From: Ignavibacteriaceae bacterium
GTDB taxonomy: Bacteria > Bacteroidota > Ignavibacteria > Ignavibacteriales > Ignavibacteriaceae
Length of the DNA: 43,847 bases
Reading direction: 5' to 3'
Assembly: GCA_014860115.1 (NCBI GenBank)
Contig: JACZKK010000135.1
Coordinates: forward strand, 1 to 43,847
Shown here: positions 28,270-37,566 of the stretch, piece by piece
Layout of the letters: every line of letters starts with the position of its first letter
How positions within the stretch are numbered: position 1 is the first letter of the stretch
Program-made: the position numbers and the translations under genes
The notes under the pieces: model-generated
What the model saw: the letters and a program-made list of their open reading frames with translations, nothing else
What the model was told of the DNA's origin: nothing
Databases searched by the model: none

Positions 28270-28500
28270 AATACCTCCTTGCTTGTTTGTTTAGATAAGC
28301 CAAAAATTTTAACCTCAATAAACAAAATCAGGAGGGGCGGTGCATATCAATGAATGGACTAATTATATAACTTATCGGACAAGATTTGTAATAACTGCGA
28401 ATAACCGTGAAATTATATTAGAAAGGATTCCCTTAGAATTTCCCGGAAAAGAGAATTATTTGCCAAACAATAAGTTTTTGTTAAAACTATTTATGGTTAA

Positions 28501-31201: not shown

Positions 31202-34200
31202 TTATTTAGTTGCTAATTCACTTGGTGAACAGCCGAACTCTTCTTTGAAGCATTTGGAGAAATATGCCGGACTTCTAAATCCCAGGTCATATGCAATTTC
31301 AGAAATTGTTCCCTTATTTTCTTTAATTAATTTTTTTGCTCTTCTTAATTTGATTGAACGAACAAAAAGTTTCGGCGCTCTGCCCGTCAATGCTATCAGT
31401 TTTCTTTGAAGATGCCTGTTGCTCATCGCTACTTCCTTACTCAGCTCTTCAATGCTAAATTCTTCTTCAGAAATGTGTTCGTTAATTATGATAATAACTT
31501 TCTTCATAAACTGCTTATCCACTGGATTTAAATCATTGGGAATTACAAAATCATCAGCACTGAACTTATCATGAAGTTTTCTTCTTATCTCAATAAGGTT
31601 CTTAATTCTAGCCTGCAGTACTTTGGTATCGAAAGGTTTCATTATGTAATCATCGGCTCCTGTTTTATATCCTGATATTTTATCCTTATCAGTTGCCTTT
31701 GCTGTTAACATTATTAAGGGGATGTGACTTGTACGCTCATCTTCCTTTATTCTTTTACACATTTCAAATCCGTCCATCTTCGGCATCATTATATCGCTGA
31801 TAATAAGATCGGGAATATGTGTTAAAGCTTCATTTAAACCCTCTTCTCCATCAACTGCCTCAAGTATTCTGTATTCTCCCTCGAGATGATCAATTACATA
31901 TTCTCTTACATCTGAGTTGTCTTCTACAATTAAAAGGGATGGTTTGCTTGTTTCAATAAAAGTTTCAATTTCATCCGCGTCTTTTTTACTTTCTGGTTCG
32001 AGTATTACTTCCTTTCCTAAAAATATTGCTTTCTCCTCTTTATCAGGTTTGCATATCTCTTCCGGTCTCAAATGCACTTTACCCAAAGGTAGAGTTAAAG
32101 TAAAAGTTGTTCCTTTCCCCTCTTTACTCTCAATTTCGATCTTTCCTTTATGCAGCTCAACTAATTCTTTTGTTAATGCTAATCCTATTCCTGCTCCTTC
32201 ATTCTCTCTTGTGTGGCTGCTATCTACCTGGTAAAAACGATCGAAGATTTTATCAATCCTTTCCTTAGGAATACCAATACCATTATCACTTACACTAATC
32301 CTAACAAAACCCCCTTTTAATTCCCCCTTCAATAAAGGGGGAAAAGAAGAGGATTCAACGGAAACTGAAACCTCGCCATCATCAGGGGTGAACTTGAGTG
32401 CATTGGATAGCAGATTTGATATTATTTTTTCCAACTTATCCTTATCAACATATACGTTGAGATTTTCCATTGGTGAGATGAATTGCAAAGTGATTTTTTT
32501 TCTTTCAGCGAAAGAACTAAAAGACAGCAATTGCTCTTTTAAAAGAGGAATAATATTCTGTTCACTTGTCTCAAGTTTCATCTTACCAGCTTCGAGTTTG
32601 GAAATATCAAGAAGCTGATTTACCAAACCATACAACCTGTCAGCATTTCGTCTAATTACTCCTGCTCTCTGTTTTGTTTTAGACTCTTTTGTTTCATCCA
32701 TTATGTCTTTTGCTGGTCCGAAGATTAAAGTGAGCGGAGTCCTAAATTCGTGAGAGATGTTTGCGAAGAATCTGTTTTTAATTTCATCTACCTCGTGCAT
32801 CTTTTCTGCTTCAAACTTTTCTATCTCCAGCTCGTGCTTAATTCTAATTCGCCTTAGTTGAAGTTTCCAGGTGAAGTAAATGATGCTGATAATGATGAGT
32901 ACATAAAAGACATAAGCCCATGTTGTTGACCACCAGGGAGGAAGAATAATTATTTTAATTGAAGTTCCCGCCTCATTCCAGATACCATCATTGTTTGAAC
33001 CTTTAACTCGGAAAATATATTCGCCGGGATCTAAGTTCGTATAAGTCGCGAATCTTCTGTCAGAGTCAGTGTAGTTCCAGTCTTTTTCAAATCCTTCCAG
33101 AATGTATGCGTATTTGTTTTTCTCCGGTACGTGAAAATCAAGTGCTGCAAACTCGACTGAAATTACTTTGTCATCATGAGTTAATACTATTTCTTCAGCT
33201 TCGATGATTGATTTTTTAAGTATCGTACGATTTAAAGTGCTATCAAATCCTGTTGAAACAGGTTTATTATAAATTAGAAAATTGGTTACGTAGATCGGTG
33301 GAATATGTTCATTGTCTTTTATACTCTCCGGATGAAAAATATTAATTCCATTAGGACCGCCAAATATCATTTCACCGGTTTTGGATTTACAGTATGAATA
33401 TGCATTAAATCCTTTGCCTTGCAAACCATCGCTTACATCGTAGTTTCTAAATGTTTCCAAAACAGGATTGAACTTGCATAATCCATCATTTGTACTTAAC
33501 CAAAGATTACCATGATCATCTTCCAGTATTCCATAAATGACATCATTGGGTAAACCATCACTTATTCTGTAACTAAAAAACTTTCCGGTCTCTCTGTTGT
33601 ATTTGTTGAGACCACCTCCGTTAGTTCCAATCCAGAATCCACCCACTTTATCCTCGCAGATACAAAGTACGTAATCATTACTCAGACTAGCTGGATTTTG
33701 TAAATCGTAACGGTAACGAATAAAATTATCATTTTCTTTGTTGTATTTATTTAGTCCACTGTGTGTGCCAACCCATAATTCACCAAATTTATCTACATAC
33801 AATAGCTCTGGATTATCACCACTCAGACTATTTATATCATCAGGACTATACCGGTAATGAACAAATTCTCCTGTTTTTCTATCAAATCTATTTAACCCGG
33901 CACCAAAGGTTCCCAGCCAAATCCTTCCATCTTTATCCTCGCAGATGGTATTAACAAAATTTGAACTTATACTTGTAGGATCAGCGGGATTGTGCTGATA
34001 GTGAGTAAACTTTTCTGTTTCAGGATTGAGCAAATTCAATCCACCATTAAATGTTCCTATCCAGAGCATTCCGGATTTATCTTCATAAACTGAATAAATT
34101 TCATTATCACTTATACTTGAAGGGTCGTCAGGATTATGGCGGTAATGTTTAAACTTATTAGTTTTTCTATCTAACCTATCTAATCCACCATCCCAGGTTC

Positions 34201-35407
34201 CAATCCATAAATATCCATTTCGATCCTCAATAATTCCATAGGTACCATTGACACTCAAACTCGATGGATCATTTGGAATATTTTTATAATGTTTAAATGC
34301 TTTTTTCTTCTTATTGAACTTATTGAAACCGGCTCCCCATGAACCTACCCATAGCAAACCTGAATTATCTTCATAAATTGTATACACAATATTATTACTT
34401 AGACTTGATGGATCGCTCGCATTATGAGTATAAGATTTAAAAGATAGCAGCGAGTTTTTATCAATCCCCAGAATTAATTTATTCAACCCTCCACCCCAGG
34501 TTCCAATCCAGACTTCACCATCTCTGTCTTCATAAATTTGAACAATCTCATTACCACTGATACTTAACGATTCATTAGGATGATTCTTGTAATGAATGAA
34601 AGTAGCTTTTAATTTGTCCTCATCTTCCCAAACAAGTTGATTGAGACCTTCACCTAAAGTACCTACCCAGATGACACCATTTCTATCTTCGTATACTCTT
34701 GATACCTGATCACTGCTGAGACTTTTTGAATCATTTGGATCATGCCTGAAGTGTATGAAATCAGGATTTGTTTTTTTTCTTTCGGAGTGAGTTAATATAT
34801 TAAGTCCTCCTCCGAGAGTTGCAATCCATAAATTCCTCTTTGAGTCTTCATAAACTGAAACTACTGTATTAAAACTCAAGCTACTTGTATCATCAGGATT
34901 ATGGGAATACCTGATGAATGGTTCCTTACTCCTATCAAACTTGTTCAATCCGCCACCAAAGGTTCCAATCCAAAGATTTTCAGAATTATCTTCATAAATT
35001 GACCACACAGCATTATCACTTATGCTGGTTGAGTCATTTGGATTGTGGATGTATCTTGTGAAAGTTTCTTTATCACTATTAAATTTATTCAGACCTCCTC
35101 CATCCGTACCAATCCAGAGTGTTCCTGTTTTATCTTCTAAAATTGAGAGAACCTGGCTATTTGAAATGCTATTTAAATCACTGTGAATGTTTCTGAAAAT
35201 TTTGAACTGATACCCATCATATCTATTTAATCCATCCGCTGTACCGATCCATAAAAATCCTTTACTATCCTGAAGTATACACCAGGCAGAACCTTCCGAC
35301 AACCCGTCCTCTCTTGTGAGTTGTTCAAATTGCATCTTTTCAGTTTGGGTATAAAGAACTGAATTGAGAAGAGTAATAAGACAAACTATTTGAAAATACT
35401 TCGCCAT
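31202..35407 (-). CDS. Hybrid two-component system regulator (HTCS)
   Basis: A 1401-residue one-protein signalling system that spans the inner membrane. The signal peptide is followed by about 14 two-component propeller repeats (residues 30-690; pattern ILEDxxGxLWIGTxGGGLNKF...). A Y_Y_Y domain follows (about 740-815), one transmembrane helix near 826-848, a HisKA domain with the phospho-acceptor in FFANISHEFRTPLTLI (about 880), and HATPase (DNGIGIP about 1039). A receiver with its aspartate in DLIISDIMMPKMDG (about 1202) and an AraC DNA-binding domain (about 1300-1401) complete it. In Bacteroidota these sensors bind a glycan fragment and switch on utilisation genes. The HATPase domain contains a repeat-derived in-frame insertion (about residues 1018-1034). 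Likely regulator of the adjacent receptor and T9SS cargo genes. Confidence 0.95.
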   Translation of the reverse strand: MAKYFQIVCLITLLNSVLYTQTEKMQFEQLTREDGLSEGSAWCILQDSKGFLWIGTADGLNRYDGYQFKIFRNIHSDLNSISNSQVLSILEDKTGTLWIGTDGGGLNKFNSDKETFTRYIHNPNDSTSISDNAVWSIYEDNSENLWIGTFGGGLNKFDRSKEPFIRYSHNPDDTSSLSFNTVVSVYEDSKRNLWIATLGGGLNILTHSERKKTNPDFIHFRHDPNDSKSLSSDQVSRVYEDRNGVIWVGTLGEGLNQLVWEDEDKLKATFIHYKNHPNESLSISGNEIVQIYEDRDGEVWIGTWGGGLNKLILGIDKNSLLSFKSYTHNASDPSSLSNNIVYTIYEDNSGLLWVGSWGAGFNKFNKKKKAFKHYKNIPNDPSSLSVNGTYGIIEDRNGYLWIGTWDGGLDRLDRKTNKFKHYRHNPDDPSSISDNEIYSVYEDKSGMLWIGTFNGGLNLLNPETEKFTHYQHNPADPTSISSNFVNTICEDKDGRIWLGTFGAGLNRFDRKTGEFVHYRYSPDDINSLSGDNPELLYVDKFGELWVGTHSGLNKYNKENDNFIRYRYDLQNPASLSNDYVLCICEDKVGGFWIGTNGGGLNKYNRETGKFFSYRISDGLPNDVIYGILEDDHGNLWLSTNDGLCKFNPVLETFRNYDVSDGLQGKGFNAYSYCKSKTGEMIFGGPNGINIFHPESIKDNEHIPPIYVTNFLIYNKPVSTGFDSTLNRTILKKSIIEAEEIVLTHDDKVISVEFAALDFHVPEKNKYAYILEGFEKDWNYTDSDRRFATYTNLDPGEYIFRVKGSNNDGIWNEAGTSIKIIILPPWWSTTWAYVFYVLIIISIIYFTWKLQLRRIRIKHELEIEKFEAEKMHEVDEIKNRFFANISHEFRTPLTLIFGPAKDIMDETKESKTKQRAGVIRRNADRLYGLVNQLLDISKLEAGKMKLETSEQNIIPLLKEQLLSFSSFAERKKITLQFISPMENLNVYVDKDKLEKIISNLLSNALKFTPDDGEVSVSVESSSFPPLLKGELKGGFVRISVSDNGIGIPKERIDKIFDRFYQVDSSHTRENEGAGIGLALTKELVELHKGKIEIESKEGKGTTFTLTLPLGKVHLRPEEICKPDKEEKAIFLGKEVILEPESKKDADEIETFIETSKPSLLIVEDNSDVREYVIDHLEGEYRILEAVDGEEGLNEALTHIPDLIISDIMMPKMDGFEMCKRIKEDERTSHIPLIMLTAKATDKDKISGYKTGADDYIMKPFDTKVLQARIKNLIEIRRKLHDKFSADDFVIPNDLNPVDKQFMKKVIIIINEHISEEEFSIEELSKEVAMSNRHLQRKLIALTGRAPKLFVRSIKLRRAKKLIKENKGTISEIAYDLGFRSPAYFSKCFKEEFGCSPSELATK
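32308..32345. repeat. Dispersed repeat inside the HTCS kinase domain
   Basis: TTCCCCCTT (32321-32329) and AAGGGGGAA (32335-32343) form a 9-bp stem, with another CCCCCTTTTAA just before it. Read in frame on the minus strand it encodes SFPPLLKGELKGGF, the typical translation of a common palindromic repeat, between the two beta strands VSVSVE and VRISVSDNG of the ATPase domain. Confidence 0.75.
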
Positions 35408-35457
35408 TTATATCATAGAGGGAGAATAATTTTTATTTCTCAACTCTACACTTTGAG

Positions 35458-35546
35458 AAAGCAGAACATTCCGGACAGAAGATAAGAGAACAACATTCTA
35501 CACGTTTCTCCAAAAGTGCAGAACTTTACCAATAAATTGCAAAAAT
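35458..35546 (-). promoter_or_regulatory. Conserved upstream block, copy A (HTCS gene)
   Basis: Starts 51 bp upstream of the HTCS ATG. It aligns with 37383-37471 at roughly three quarters or more identity, including AACATTCCGGA, ATAAGAGAACA, ACGTTTCTCC and GCAGAACT in the same order and spacing (one gap). The core GAGAACAACATTCTACACGTTTCTC has inverted ends (GAGAA/TTCTC), an operator-like layout. Probably the HTCS AraC-domain binding region or a shared promoter; it could instead be a dispersed repeat. The rest of 35408-35632 holds no gene. Confidence 0.6.
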
Positions 35547-35632
35547 TAGGTTTGATAAAAAAGCAACTGTTGTAAGGCGGCAAGTAAAAAAAGAATTACT
35601 CCTCTTTAAAAAGCCTGGTACACGTTGTTACT

Positions 35633-36259
35633 CTATCTTTCAATCACATCAATTACTTTTAGATATTCTGGTTCTTCGTCATTATAGCGAGTGTAATCTT
35701 TTAATATATAAAAATTATAACCAGTTGGAATTTCCTCCAGTATAAATTCTTTATTGGAAAGAGCATAGCCTGCTATTCCTCCTGAAACACTGCCCAATAT
35801 TGATCCAATTCCCGCTCCAACTATTATTGCAAAATCTTTTTCATTTCCGTATAAATCAGTTGTAGAATTAACAATAAAGCCACCTAATACAGCACCCGTT
35901 AAATAACCAAGAGCTATTCCTGTCCAGACATAAGATTTTCCTTCAAATGTCAATTCCTTAATTTCATTATTTTTGACAAGAATAATTGGATAGACAGAAT
36001 TTAGCAGTTCTTCCTCCGTTGCTCCATATTCAGTGCACAAAATCAATGCACTATCACGCACAGATAGAAGTTCTCCTTCAACTTCCTCTCCGTTAAACAG
36101 AATTATTGTTACTTCGGCGCCTACATTAGTGCCTTTTTCATAAGCATTAAGTTCTCTAATAACTTTTCCTCTATCGTTTTCTGTCAAACTCAGGTAAGTT
36201 GTAGTGCTGCATCCTGCACTAATCATTCCAATAACAACAATTATGATTGATGACTTCAT
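35633..36259 (-). CDS. Uncharacterised lipoprotein with glycine-rich membrane-active segment
   Basis: The preferred start is the ATG at 36259 (MKSSIIIVVIGMISAGC), four codons into the longest frame (36271), because it gives a compact lipoprotein signal with lipobox ISAGC; the protein is then 208 residues. The first mature part (about 20-95) has the strand-rich pattern GAEVTIILFNGEEVEGELLSVRDSALILC, an Sm-like or small beta-barrel style segment common in Bacteroidota lipoproteins. About residues 108-165 are glycine-rich (GIALGYLTGAVLGGFI, GAGIGSILGSVSGGIAGYAL), like glycine-zipper domains. It starts 34 bp past the jelly-roll gene stop. Function unknown. Confidence 0.75.
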   Translation of the reverse strand: MKSSIIIVVIGMISAGCSTTTYLSLTENDRGKVIRELNAYEKGTNVGAEVTIILFNGEEVEGELLSVRDSALILCTEYGATEEELLNSVYPIILVKNNEIKELTFEGKSYVWTGIALGYLTGAVLGGFIVNSTTDLYGNEKDFAIIVGAGIGSILGSVSGGIAGYALSNKEFILEEIPTGYNFYILKDYTRYNDEEPEYLKVIDVIER

Positions 36260-36292
36260 CAATAAGCCCAATAAAAGAATTTCTTATTTAGA

Positions 36293-37309
36293 TTATTTTA
36301 ATAGGATCATCTTCTTCGTTTCAACAAAATTTCCAGCCTTAAGTCTGTAGAAGTAAATTCCACTTGGCAGATTCCGGACTTCGCCGGAATGACTACTAAA
36401 AGTTACTTCGTAGGTTCCTGCAGATTTTTCTTCACTTACCAATGTTGCTATTTCATTACCCAGAACATCATATACTTTTAGTGATACAAATTGCCTACTG
36501 CTTACTGCATACTGGATACTGGTTACTGGATTGAATGGATTGGGATAATTTTGTTCGAGTGCAAATTCGGTTGGTACAGAAAAATCCTTAACTCCAACTA
36601 TAGTATCTAACCGTTCCAGCATAAAGTCATCCAAATACCATTGAGATGGGTCGGGAAGAGGCCAGTCGCTGCCCATTATATCCGTTACAGACAGCTGACG
36701 TGCACATGTATCACCCCAAATAGCGAGAGTCCATTGCCAGCTGTGAATTAGACTACCTTCAAAATAGTACTCGGCTGAATCCTTGTTTAAATCTACAATT
36801 AGTTCATTATGCATCCACATATCATAGGAGAACGAAAATGGTGCACCACTTCCACCACCATTAATATAACCGTTTCCAGATGGATCGAACTTGGCTACAA
36901 ATCCCCACTCAGTTGAATCAGGATTATAAAAAGCTGCTAACTGACCCCAGCTTGCAGTATAATCCGTAGGGATATACATATAAAAGCTTATACTATACTT
37001 TCCATAGGTATAGTTAGGAATAGGTTTAACCAAGTCGTTATCCTGTTGGATCCAAACCGAGTTCGTTCCGCTGTAAGAATTAGTGTTAGTTACATAAGGA
37101 TCTTCGGTCAGATCACAAGGAATACTGTTCCAGGTATTCCAATTCACATTAATATGAATGGTATCCTGGCAAGCAATTTGGCCTCCGGCAGTGTATGATT
37201 CGAAATCATCAGAAAATAAAACTAAAGAATCTGTCTGTGCCGGTGAGAAAGAAGAAAGTAACAGAATGAAGACAAAACTGAGACAAAGTAGAAAAAATTT
37301 AGTGAACAT
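36293..37309 (-). CDS. T9SS-exported jelly-roll (concanavalin-like) protein
   Basis: A 338-residue secreted protein from ATG 37309. The frame opens four codons earlier, but those codons contain the GGAGG ribosome site placed 5 nt before this ATG. A signal peptide ends near SPAQTDS. Residues about 30-240 (FSDDFESYTAGGQ..., TYGKYSISFYMYIPT, WYLDDFMLERL) look like a concanavalin/laminin-G-type jelly roll, typical of carbohydrate-binding or glucanase-like modules; no catalytic pair is identifiable. The tail is a T9SS type A domain (FALEQNYPNPFNPVTSIQYA to FVETKKMILLK). Two repeats interrupt this tail in frame: heptamers at 36494-36528 and a palindrome at 36371-36390. Shares an upstream block with the HTCS gene. 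Confidence 0.85.
   Translation of the reverse strand: MFTKFFLLCLSFVFILLLSSFSPAQTDSLVLFSDDFESYTAGGQIACQDTIHINVNWNTWNSIPCDLTEDPYVTNTNSYSGTNSVWIQQDNDLVKPIPNYTYGKYSISFYMYIPTDYTASWGQLAAFYNPDSTEWGFVAKFDPSGNGYINGGGSGAPFSFSYDMWMHNELIVDLNKDSAEYYFEGSLIHSWQWTLAIWGDTCARQLSVTDIMGSDWPLPDPSQWYLDDFMLERLDTIVGVKDFSVPTEFALEQNYPNPFNPVTSIQYAVSSRQFVSLKVYDVLGNEIATLVSEEKSAGTYEVTFSSHSGEVRNLPSGIYFYRLKAGNFVETKKMILLK
36371..36390. repeat. REP-like palindrome inside a T9SS sorting domain
   Basis: ATTCCGGACTTCGCCGGAAT: perfect 7-bp arms with a 6-nt loop. In frame it encodes part of SSHSGEVRNLPSGIY, where other tails in this window read (F)NAAGLPSGIY or AGNLASGIY, so about 8 residues are extra. Confidence 0.75.
36494..36528. 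repeat. Five tandem heptamers inside a T9SS sorting domain
   Basis: Units CCTACTG, CTTACTG, CATACTG, GATACTG, GTTACTG (consensus NNTACTG), exactly 7 bp each. They encode the segment TSIQYAVSSRQ of the tail on the minus strand. Heptamers shift frame with each unit, so a change in copy number would disrupt the tail unless made in multiples of three. Confidence 0.85.
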
Positions 37310-37382
37310 GGCGCCCTCCAAAAAATTTTAATGAATTATTTATGGATTAAATGCAACTACTTTGAACAATACTCCTTGGGGG

Positions 37383-37471
37383 AAGCACAACATTCCGGAG
37401 AGCAATAAGAGAACAGTATTCTATACGTTTCTCCTAAGGGGCAGAACTACTTGCTATAATTTGCGAAAAAT
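37383..37471 (-). promoter_or_regulatory. Conserved upstream block, copy B (jelly-roll gene)
   Basis: Starts 74 bp upstream of the jelly-roll ATG and aligns with 35458-35546. The core GAGAACAGTATTCTATACGTTTCTC keeps the inverted GAGAA/TTCTC ends. The 374-bp gap 37310-37683 contains this block and the moxR fragment at 37567-37668; nothing else is clear. Confidence 0.6.
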
Positions 37472-37566
37472 AATTGACAGTTACAACTATTCTTTCTGGC
37501 AGGTAACAGTAAACGTCTTGGGAATAATAGAATGAATTCCAAAAAACCTAAGTTTCAGAAGGATTT

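Follow-up and report, generated by a model that had tools for sequence, protein, structure and literature searches.

A clade-limited regulatory element upstream of genes for exported proteins and regulators in the Ignavibacteriaceae

A contig of 43,847 nucleotides from an Ignavibacteriaceae bacterium (GenBank assembly GCA_014860115.1, contig JACZKK010000135.1, positions 1 to 43,847; hereafter "the window") carries two copies of a conserved element of ~85 bp, one upstream of a gene for a cargo protein of the type IX secretion system (T9SS) and the other upstream of a gene for a hybrid two-component system (HTCS) regulator. We show herein that the element occurs in 33 copies in 8 genomes, which represent three genera of one family, the Ignavibacteriaceae (Ignavibacteriota, FCB group). 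It is a real, clade-limited cis-regulatory element with a regulon of its own, and not a random repeat, because it is confined to this clade, the gene on its 3' side is encoded on the same strand for every one of the 33 copies, and the genes downstream are mostly unrelated. The family itself, its orientation and position, its clade limits, an outer dyad, an excess of folding from the 3' part of the element to the start codon in leaders with a Shine-Dalgarno (SD) sequence, and an enrichment of SD sequences are established. As to its mode of action, we lean tentatively, and with a little less than even confidence, towards a structured 5' leader of a small regulon that acts on translation, with the element making up the first ~85-90 nt of the mRNA.

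Both copies read on the minus strand of the window. The scores below come from R2, a sequence-only model built on all 33 copies, and the alternative limits of copy 1 from R1, a covariance model of 18 copies.

37362 to 37449, minus strand: conserved element copy 1, 5' of the T9SS cargo gene (81.7 bits, E=9.5e-25; limits 37359-37450 with R1)
35438 to 35525, minus strand: conserved element copy 2, 5' of the HTCS gene (68.7 bits, E=1.1e-20)
36293 to 37309, minus strand: T9SS cargo gene, 338 amino acids from the ATG, Por_Secre_tail (Pfam PF18962, E=1.1e-9)
31202 to 35407, minus strand: HTCS gene, 1401 amino acids, with Reg_prop, Y_Y_Y, HisKA, HATPase_c, Response_reg and HTH_18 (Pfam)
37314 to 37319, minus strand: SD sequence GGAGGG of the T9SS gene (from the sequence)

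A sequence-only reading of the window had aligned positions 35458-35546 with 37383-37471 and had placed the two blocks 51 and 74 bp upstream of the respective genes. Both blocks match as claimed, on the minus strand, and the gaps agree with ATG starts at 35407 (HTCS) and 37309 (T9SS). The window contains two instances of the word pair TGTTCTCTTAT-N3..10-TCCGGAATGTT, and none of 100 shuffles contains it. A faint third resemblance, suspected near 28441-28465, was not recovered, as the 33-copy model, at thresholds up to E=10, detects no copy in the window beyond these two.

When copy 1 was compared at the DNA level with the whole genome to which the window belongs (G000; 222 contigs, 99% complete), it recovered copy 2 (80% identity across 90 bases, E=2.5e-15), C128 (E=2.1e-16) and two C8 sites (E=1.5e-8 and 0.0021); the other five matches in this genome all had E values of at least 1.1. 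From a search of 59 relatives, 21 matches were picked (E>0.0072 being excluded) and three partial ones (G5, G34 and G2) removed, and the 18 that were left gave R1. At E<=0.01, R1 found 32 copies in 8 of 80 family genomes and, over the order, the same 8 among 164 genomes with no additional genome; both scans used stricter filters, under which weak matches can be lost. A rescan of 24 loci added one copy (E=0.0042), which brought the total to 33, and an 18.5-bit match (L052:2546) was removed from alignment A4. The copies are distributed as follows: G000, 5; G001, 9; G004, 3; G009, 1; G017, 2; G059, 3; G060, 5; and G061, 5. Over 20 genomes, R2 returned the 33 copies at E<=3.5e-8, a match by construction, then nothing until E=9.5e-4, and no additional weak copies stood above noise. 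Since the gap from 3.5e-8 to 9.5e-4 is empty, half-decayed copies are absent. A strict pattern that fits only part of the copies gave 12 matches in six genomes of 84,980 species, all in this clade, in a scan of contigs of at least 3 kb from which the window's own genome was possibly absent.

The nearest frame on the 3' side of the element is on the same strand in all 33 cases, in a strand-neutral count, whereas the 5'-side neighbour, which served as the control, is on the same strand in 20, on the opposite strand in 11, and not within reach in two. The strand of the 3' neighbour being constant and that of the 5' neighbour variable, the element belongs to the 3'-side gene. Its distance to the chosen ATG, counted separately and on the same strand only, is 35-97 bp in 27 of the 33 copies and 127-267 bp in the other six. 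According to Pfam, the 33 downstream genes include 11 with a T9SS tail (Por_Secre_tail), three HTCS or HTCS-like genes, three MarR genes, five SnoaL/DUF4440 genes, and one each of the cyclic-nucleotide-binding (cNMP-binding), pyridoxamine-oxidase-like and SBBP types. Six have no family above cut-off (G17_53, with a sub-threshold match, among them), G1_175 is a 72-amino-acid frame that resembles T9SS tails by BLAST, and G4_255, cut by a contig end, stood outside the Pfam scan. Two of the three HTCS or HTCS-like genes are 46% identical over 1404 aligned positions; G60_537, which is HTCS-like and masked beyond its N-terminal part, is 71% identical over 299 amino acids to another of the three. The downstream proteins are unrelated but for the T9SS tails and a handful of families that recur, and the similarity therefore resides in the control regions. 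The sequence-only reading had said as much of the two copies in the window, in the same orientation, and its claim is borne out over 33 copies; the shared control that it proposed is likewise supported, in the form of a common regulon, by the 33 same-strand neighbours. It had also named scattered copies in random orientation as the outcome that would speak for a dispersed repeat, and this outcome was looked for and did not occur.

T9SS tails are common in the window's genome, which encodes at least 150 of them, and the element precedes three of these. A hydrophobic N-terminus, as judged by a crude measure, was found in 26 of 32 regulon genes versus 110 of 210 others (p=0.002); in this comparison and in the SD and duplex tests below, G59_132, whose start is unclear and which is open at a contig end, was left out.

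Several copies deserve a separate description. In G001, four copies lie within ~5 kb (L047:7526-12619), each before its own gene (one SnoaL-like, two without a family and one cNMP-binding), a cluster that suggests local copying of a control region together with gene gain. Copy G1_87 (L047:7621-7840) is succeeded by a 15-codon frame whose start context, GAGGCTGCTATG, is common to other regulon genes, and a 178-amino-acid gene starts ~200 bp further on; the short frame is possibly a leader peptide or an eroded first gene. The MarR-linked copy C8b (L012:15191-15286) is the most diverged in its genome and has lost part of the element's centre, while two MarR genes of G060 have fuller copies.

The element has a strong internal symmetry. 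Over 31 of the 33 copies (C8b and G1_171b were left out as divergent, here as well as in the covariation, consensus-folding and strand comparisons), an outer dyad, CTACnCCTTrGGrGAA...TTCCCCCAAGGnGTAG, scores 15.8, compared with 10.9 for the best of 60 column shuffles. Its inverted arms of 16 bp are ~61 bp apart, and the ~45 bp between them are largely as conserved as the arms. The inverted GAGAA...TTCTC ends that had been noted for the two copies in the window are present, but the inner dyad that they form (10.8) falls inside the shuffle range, and the longer outer dyad is the stronger one. The best direct repeat scores 10.5, at a period of 27 bp, which is within the shuffles (mean 8.0, maximum 11.8), and among the matches listed those with shorter periods score lower. 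An inner hairpin-like segment has a mean folding z of -2.1 on the sense strand and -2.2 on the antisense strand over the 31 copies.

37429 to 37444, minus strand: outer dyad, 5' arm, copy 1 (dyad score 15.8 vs 10.9)
37370 to 37384, minus strand: outer dyad, 3' arm, copy 1 (dyad score 15.8 vs 10.9)
35506 to 35521, minus strand: outer dyad, 5' arm, copy 2, with nine positions pairable with the 3' arm (CUGCACUUU/AAAGUGUAG; by eye and dyad score)
35446 to 35460, minus strand: outer dyad, 3' arm, copy 2 (by eye and dyad score)
37409 to 37434, minus strand: inner hairpin-like stretch GGAGAAACGTATAGAATACTGTTCTC, copy 1 (from the fold; no significant covariation)
37378 to 37388, minus strand: conserved GTGCTTCCCCC segment, a candidate anti-SD sequence, copy 1 (strongly conserved in alignment A5)

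Promoters of the Bacteroidota type consist of a TTG followed by TAnnTTTG. Such sites were found six times in 175 upstream regions, where 1.9 (standard deviation 1.2) were expected, and, in G000 and G001, before seven of 19 tRNA genes in a count made without a shuffled control; TATAAT preceded none of these tRNA genes. A promoter of this type thus appears to be in use in these genomes. Along the 33 copies, a promoter-like match with the same spacing as before the tRNA genes scores best just upstream of the element, where its -7 box has position -13 (mean 6.50; z=3.0 relative to other positions). Scores of at least 7 were reached in 10 of the 33 copies, and single matches are weak, that of copy 2 included.

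37453 to 37486, minus strand: promoter-like TTG-N22-AATTATAGC, its end close to the 5' edge of copy 1 (weak; promoter scoring)
35533 to 35566, minus strand: promoter-like TTG-N22-TGCAATTTA, its end close to the 5' edge of copy 2 (weak; promoter scoring)

With the -7 box 13 nt before the element, a transcript would start at the element's 5' edge. A promoter downstream of the element was also considered and set aside, its scores being weaker than those of the upstream one. Around the window's two copies, neither canonical sigma-70 sites nor terminators were more frequent than in shuffles.

The leader of the T9SS gene illustrates how the element might reach the ribosome-binding site (RBS). When the whole leader is folded, the SD sequence pairs with the element at a mean probability of 0.92, mainly with a GCTCTCC stretch; when the 3' half is folded, it pairs with CCCCC. 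The stretch of copy 1 that contains GTGCTTCCCCC forms a duplex of -18.5 kcal/mol with the RBS of its own gene. An SD sequence of the GGAGG type is found in 15 of 32 regulon genes versus 24 of 210 others (p=8e-6, Fisher), and the enrichment persists against the 110 others with a hydrophobic N-terminus, 19 of which have it (p=0.0016, Fisher). Among 20 leaders chosen by hand, most of them with an SD sequence, and folded without a shuffled control, the SD sequence pairs with the element at a mean probability of at least 0.72 in 13, the partner being either GUGCUUCCCC or, just ahead of it, UUCC/CUCC.

Folding was compared with background in a subset of 13 leaders (SD present, spacer <=65). For the segment bounded by the conserved stretch and the start codon, the mean z was -1.69, versus -0.06 in 90 of 137 background leaders (p=1.4e-4), and for the spacer hairpin it was -1.79 versus -0.33 (p=0.0011). 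When the background was restricted to all 45 leaders that have an SD sequence, the values were -1.54 versus -0.23 (p=0.0026) for the same stretch and -1.64 versus -0.37 (p=0.0032) for the spacer hairpin. Taken over all sites and not only this subset, pairing between RBS and element was stronger for the regulon than for background (-8.59 versus -6.56, p=0.00085).

In three leaders of genus g13 (L090:7362-7446, L091:7070-7153 and L056:7076-7162), a second conserved stretch resembling GGGATAAATTGCTRTGCTTCCTAATTCCC lies between the element and the gene, and a fourth (L097:7263-7348) has a diverged form of it. The element's TGCTTCC motif recurs in this stretch, and alternative hairpins are possible. 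Between L090 and L091, the spacer hairpin is kept through a double change from U-A to C-G, as seen by eye in the folds.

If the element is a translational leader, its regulon would comprise 1-9 genes per genome, coding for exported or T9SS-secreted proteins and some regulators, the HTCS included. Transcription would begin at the element's 5' edge and the leader RNA would fold, whereupon the conserved UUCC...GUGCUUCCCC could pair with the SD sequence and start codon of the same mRNA. This pairing would hold translation down until the conserved 5' part responded to a ligand, a protein or a small RNA, upon which the fold would shift and free the RBS. On this view the HTCS would not read the element but would be controlled through it. 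A more specific proposal is that of an undescribed class of leader RNA, peculiar to the Ignavibacteriaceae, which senses an envelope or secretion signal and switches the translation of T9SS cargo, exported SnoaL-like proteins and regulators through an anti-SD sequence that pairs with either the element's 5' part or the RBS; this we regard as unlikely.

A number of results weigh against a translational leader. Among 4575 column pairs, none covaries significantly (best E=5.2; 31 copies, under our own R-scape-like phylogenetic null), and RNAalifold on 18 copies found six pairs, none of them compensated. On the sense strand, a consensus fold of the 31 copies had a z of +0.3, that is, no structure (the 15 copies of genus g1 alone gave -3.8), while the antisense strand folded strongly (z -5.6). 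In the 13 leaders, the mean z was 0.0 for the element alone, -0.95 for the whole leader and -1.58 for its antisense, and the antisense of the 3' half also exceeds the 45 SD-bearing background leaders (p=0.027). Nor is the pairing clearly specific to the partners: over the 32 genes, RBSs did not pair clearly better with their own elements than with those of other genes (p=0.19), nor elements with their own RBSs than with others (p=0.61), the p-value for own pairing being 0.077 in the 13 leaders. The strongest duplex, that of C8a (-21.5 kcal/mol), reflects a G-rich RBS with which 19 other elements pair better, and RBSs that carry GGAGG pair equally whether from the regulon (15) or from the background (26; p=0.20). 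The HTCS leader has no SD sequence, and the pairing model therefore does not cover it. Finally, the p-values of the 13 leaders are post hoc, because the subset was chosen after the folds were known.

A hand-made structure of the lower dyad plus the inner hairpin paired 86% of the cells and was dropped, its covariation lying within shuffles. No known RNA family was matched at the copies in Rfam: at the gathering threshold, nothing was found near the copies in the window, L011 and L012 (one signal recognition particle RNA was found elsewhere), and at E<=1 five copy-bearing loci gave tRNA only.

The same evidence can be read at the level of DNA. An operator for a dimeric or paired transcription factor other than the HTCS, bound at the outer-dyad arms (~61 bp, or about six helix turns, apart) and controlling promoters that end at the element's edge, is a possibility that we take seriously, if with some doubt. 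The outer dyad is far above shuffles, the primary sequence is strongly conserved without covariation, and the element alone, on the sense strand, has no unusual fold in the 13 leaders. Moreover, SusR-like regulators of Bacteroides have predicted long-spaced twin sites, which are direct repeats 67 or 77 bp apart as far as the source describes them (PMC3878776). On the other hand, a looped pair of operators has no need of the ~45 bp between the arms, which are conserved like the arms themselves; no tested candidate binder (HTCS, MarR or cNMP) co-occurs with the element; and the excess of leader folding and the SD enrichment are left unexplained. A small RNA encoded on the opposite strand and transcribed away from the gene would suit the finding that, in 28 of the 31 copies, folding is stronger on the antisense strand (mean z -2.95; consensus z -5.5 to -8.7). 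In the upper dyad, however, mismatches at several positions are A-C on the sense strand and thus G-U on the antisense strand (76 versus 6 cells), and the strong antisense z stems at least in part from the dyad and the direction of these mismatches. In the lower dyad the counts are balanced (29 A-C versus 27 G-U cells) and do not favour the antisense strand; for the inner hairpin, 26 of the 31 copies have the more stable form on the sense strand. Since the promoter-like match also faces the gene, and since the position is tied to the 3'-side gene in all 33 copies while the 5' neighbour varies in strand and distance, such a small RNA is highly unlikely. A dispersed palindromic repeat, akin to repetitive extragenic palindromes or miniature inverted-repeat transposable elements and found upstream of genes by chance, is scarcely tenable. 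The element is palindromic and has several copies per genome, and an IS200-like Y1 transposase (L011:7932-8423) is encoded on the other strand ~0.5 kb upstream of copy C128; but a relative of this transposase (35% identity) was found at only one other of the 24 copy-bearing loci (L093), there are no degenerate relics between E=3.5e-8 and 9.5e-4, and the uniform orientation of the copies largely refutes this reading. Integron attC sites and invertible promoters were also set aside: no attC boxes were seen by eye, and all copies have one orientation.

The sequence-only reading had proposed that the AraC domain of the HTCS binds the block, with autoregulation and co-control of the T9SS gene. Regulators are often members of their own regulons, and three of the 33 copies are followed by an HTCS or HTCS-like gene, with 46% identity between two of these genes. 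Nonetheless, this proposal is very improbable. A receiver-AraC query of 260 residues had no match at E<=1e-40 in G017 (100% complete, two copies) or in G059 (93% complete, three copies), at a threshold where the absence of a match is not the absence of every HTCS, weaker matches being unlisted. In G000, nine matches were found at this threshold and one was seen behind a copy, some being possibly cut by contig ends. The symmetry of the element is inverted, and it has no significant direct repeat like those predicted for HTCS sites; in Bacteroides, the predicted sites consist, as far as the source describes them, of two directly repeated units of 12-16 bp with a spacer of 5-9 bp (PMC3878776). 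G003 (77% complete) has an HTCS of 68% identity and no copy of the element; its frame seems to be cut by the contig start, and the upstream region could therefore not be read. Other candidates fared no better as universal partners. MarR proteins were matched at E<=1e-20 in 54 of 80 family genomes, but in neither G059 (three copies) nor G061 (five copies), and the cNMP protein was matched at E<=1e-8 only in G001 among 13 genomes. Because the HTCS, MarR and cNMP proteins are each unmatched in some element-bearing genomes, none of them looks like a required partner. For the HTCS, a place among the genes controlled through the element is likelier than the role of its reader.

Between the T9SS gene and copy 2, the window also encodes a protein of 208 amino acids (35633-36259) with a lipoprotein-like start (MKSSIIIVVIGMISAGC) and a weak match to ArsP_1, below the Pfam cut-off. 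This gene may be cotranscribed with the T9SS gene.

Literature searches on Ignavibacteria, which did not cover surveys of structured RNAs, returned no report of the control of exported-protein genes or of such an element, and judging from these searches and from Rfam the element appears to be undescribed. One motif thus marks a ready-made regulon of 33 genes in 8 genomes, made up of T9SS cargo, HTCS, MarR and exported proteins of undefined role. It also makes a question testable, namely whether a subset of T9SS cargo is controlled as a group, and whether at the mRNA leader or at the DNA.

Riboswitch-type leader RNAs are conserved blocks of ~80 nt that occur in one orientation shortly upstream of unrelated genes. 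The element resembles them in this respect, as well as in the possible occlusion of the RBS, but differs in having neither significant covariation nor an Rfam match, in having no ligand assigned, and in being confined to one family. With PorXY-SigP of Porphyromonas it has in common two-component control in a T9SS context; as far as the available descriptions go, PorXY-SigP governs the genes of the secretion machinery, whereas the present element is a cis feature common to genes for cargo and other exported proteins. The predicted HTCS sites of Bacteroides, in so far as they are set out in PMC3878776, are likewise conserved sites before genes for exported sugar machinery; they are direct repeats at HTCS loci, whereas here an inverted dyad of ~85 bp is found, and 30 of the 33 copies do not precede an HTCS gene. 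The predicted SusR-like sites from the same source resemble the element in being a pair of conserved sites separated by some six to seven turns of the helix. Those are described as direct repeats with a non-conserved spacer, whereas the arms of the present element are inverted, ~61 bp apart, and separated by a spacer that is itself conserved.

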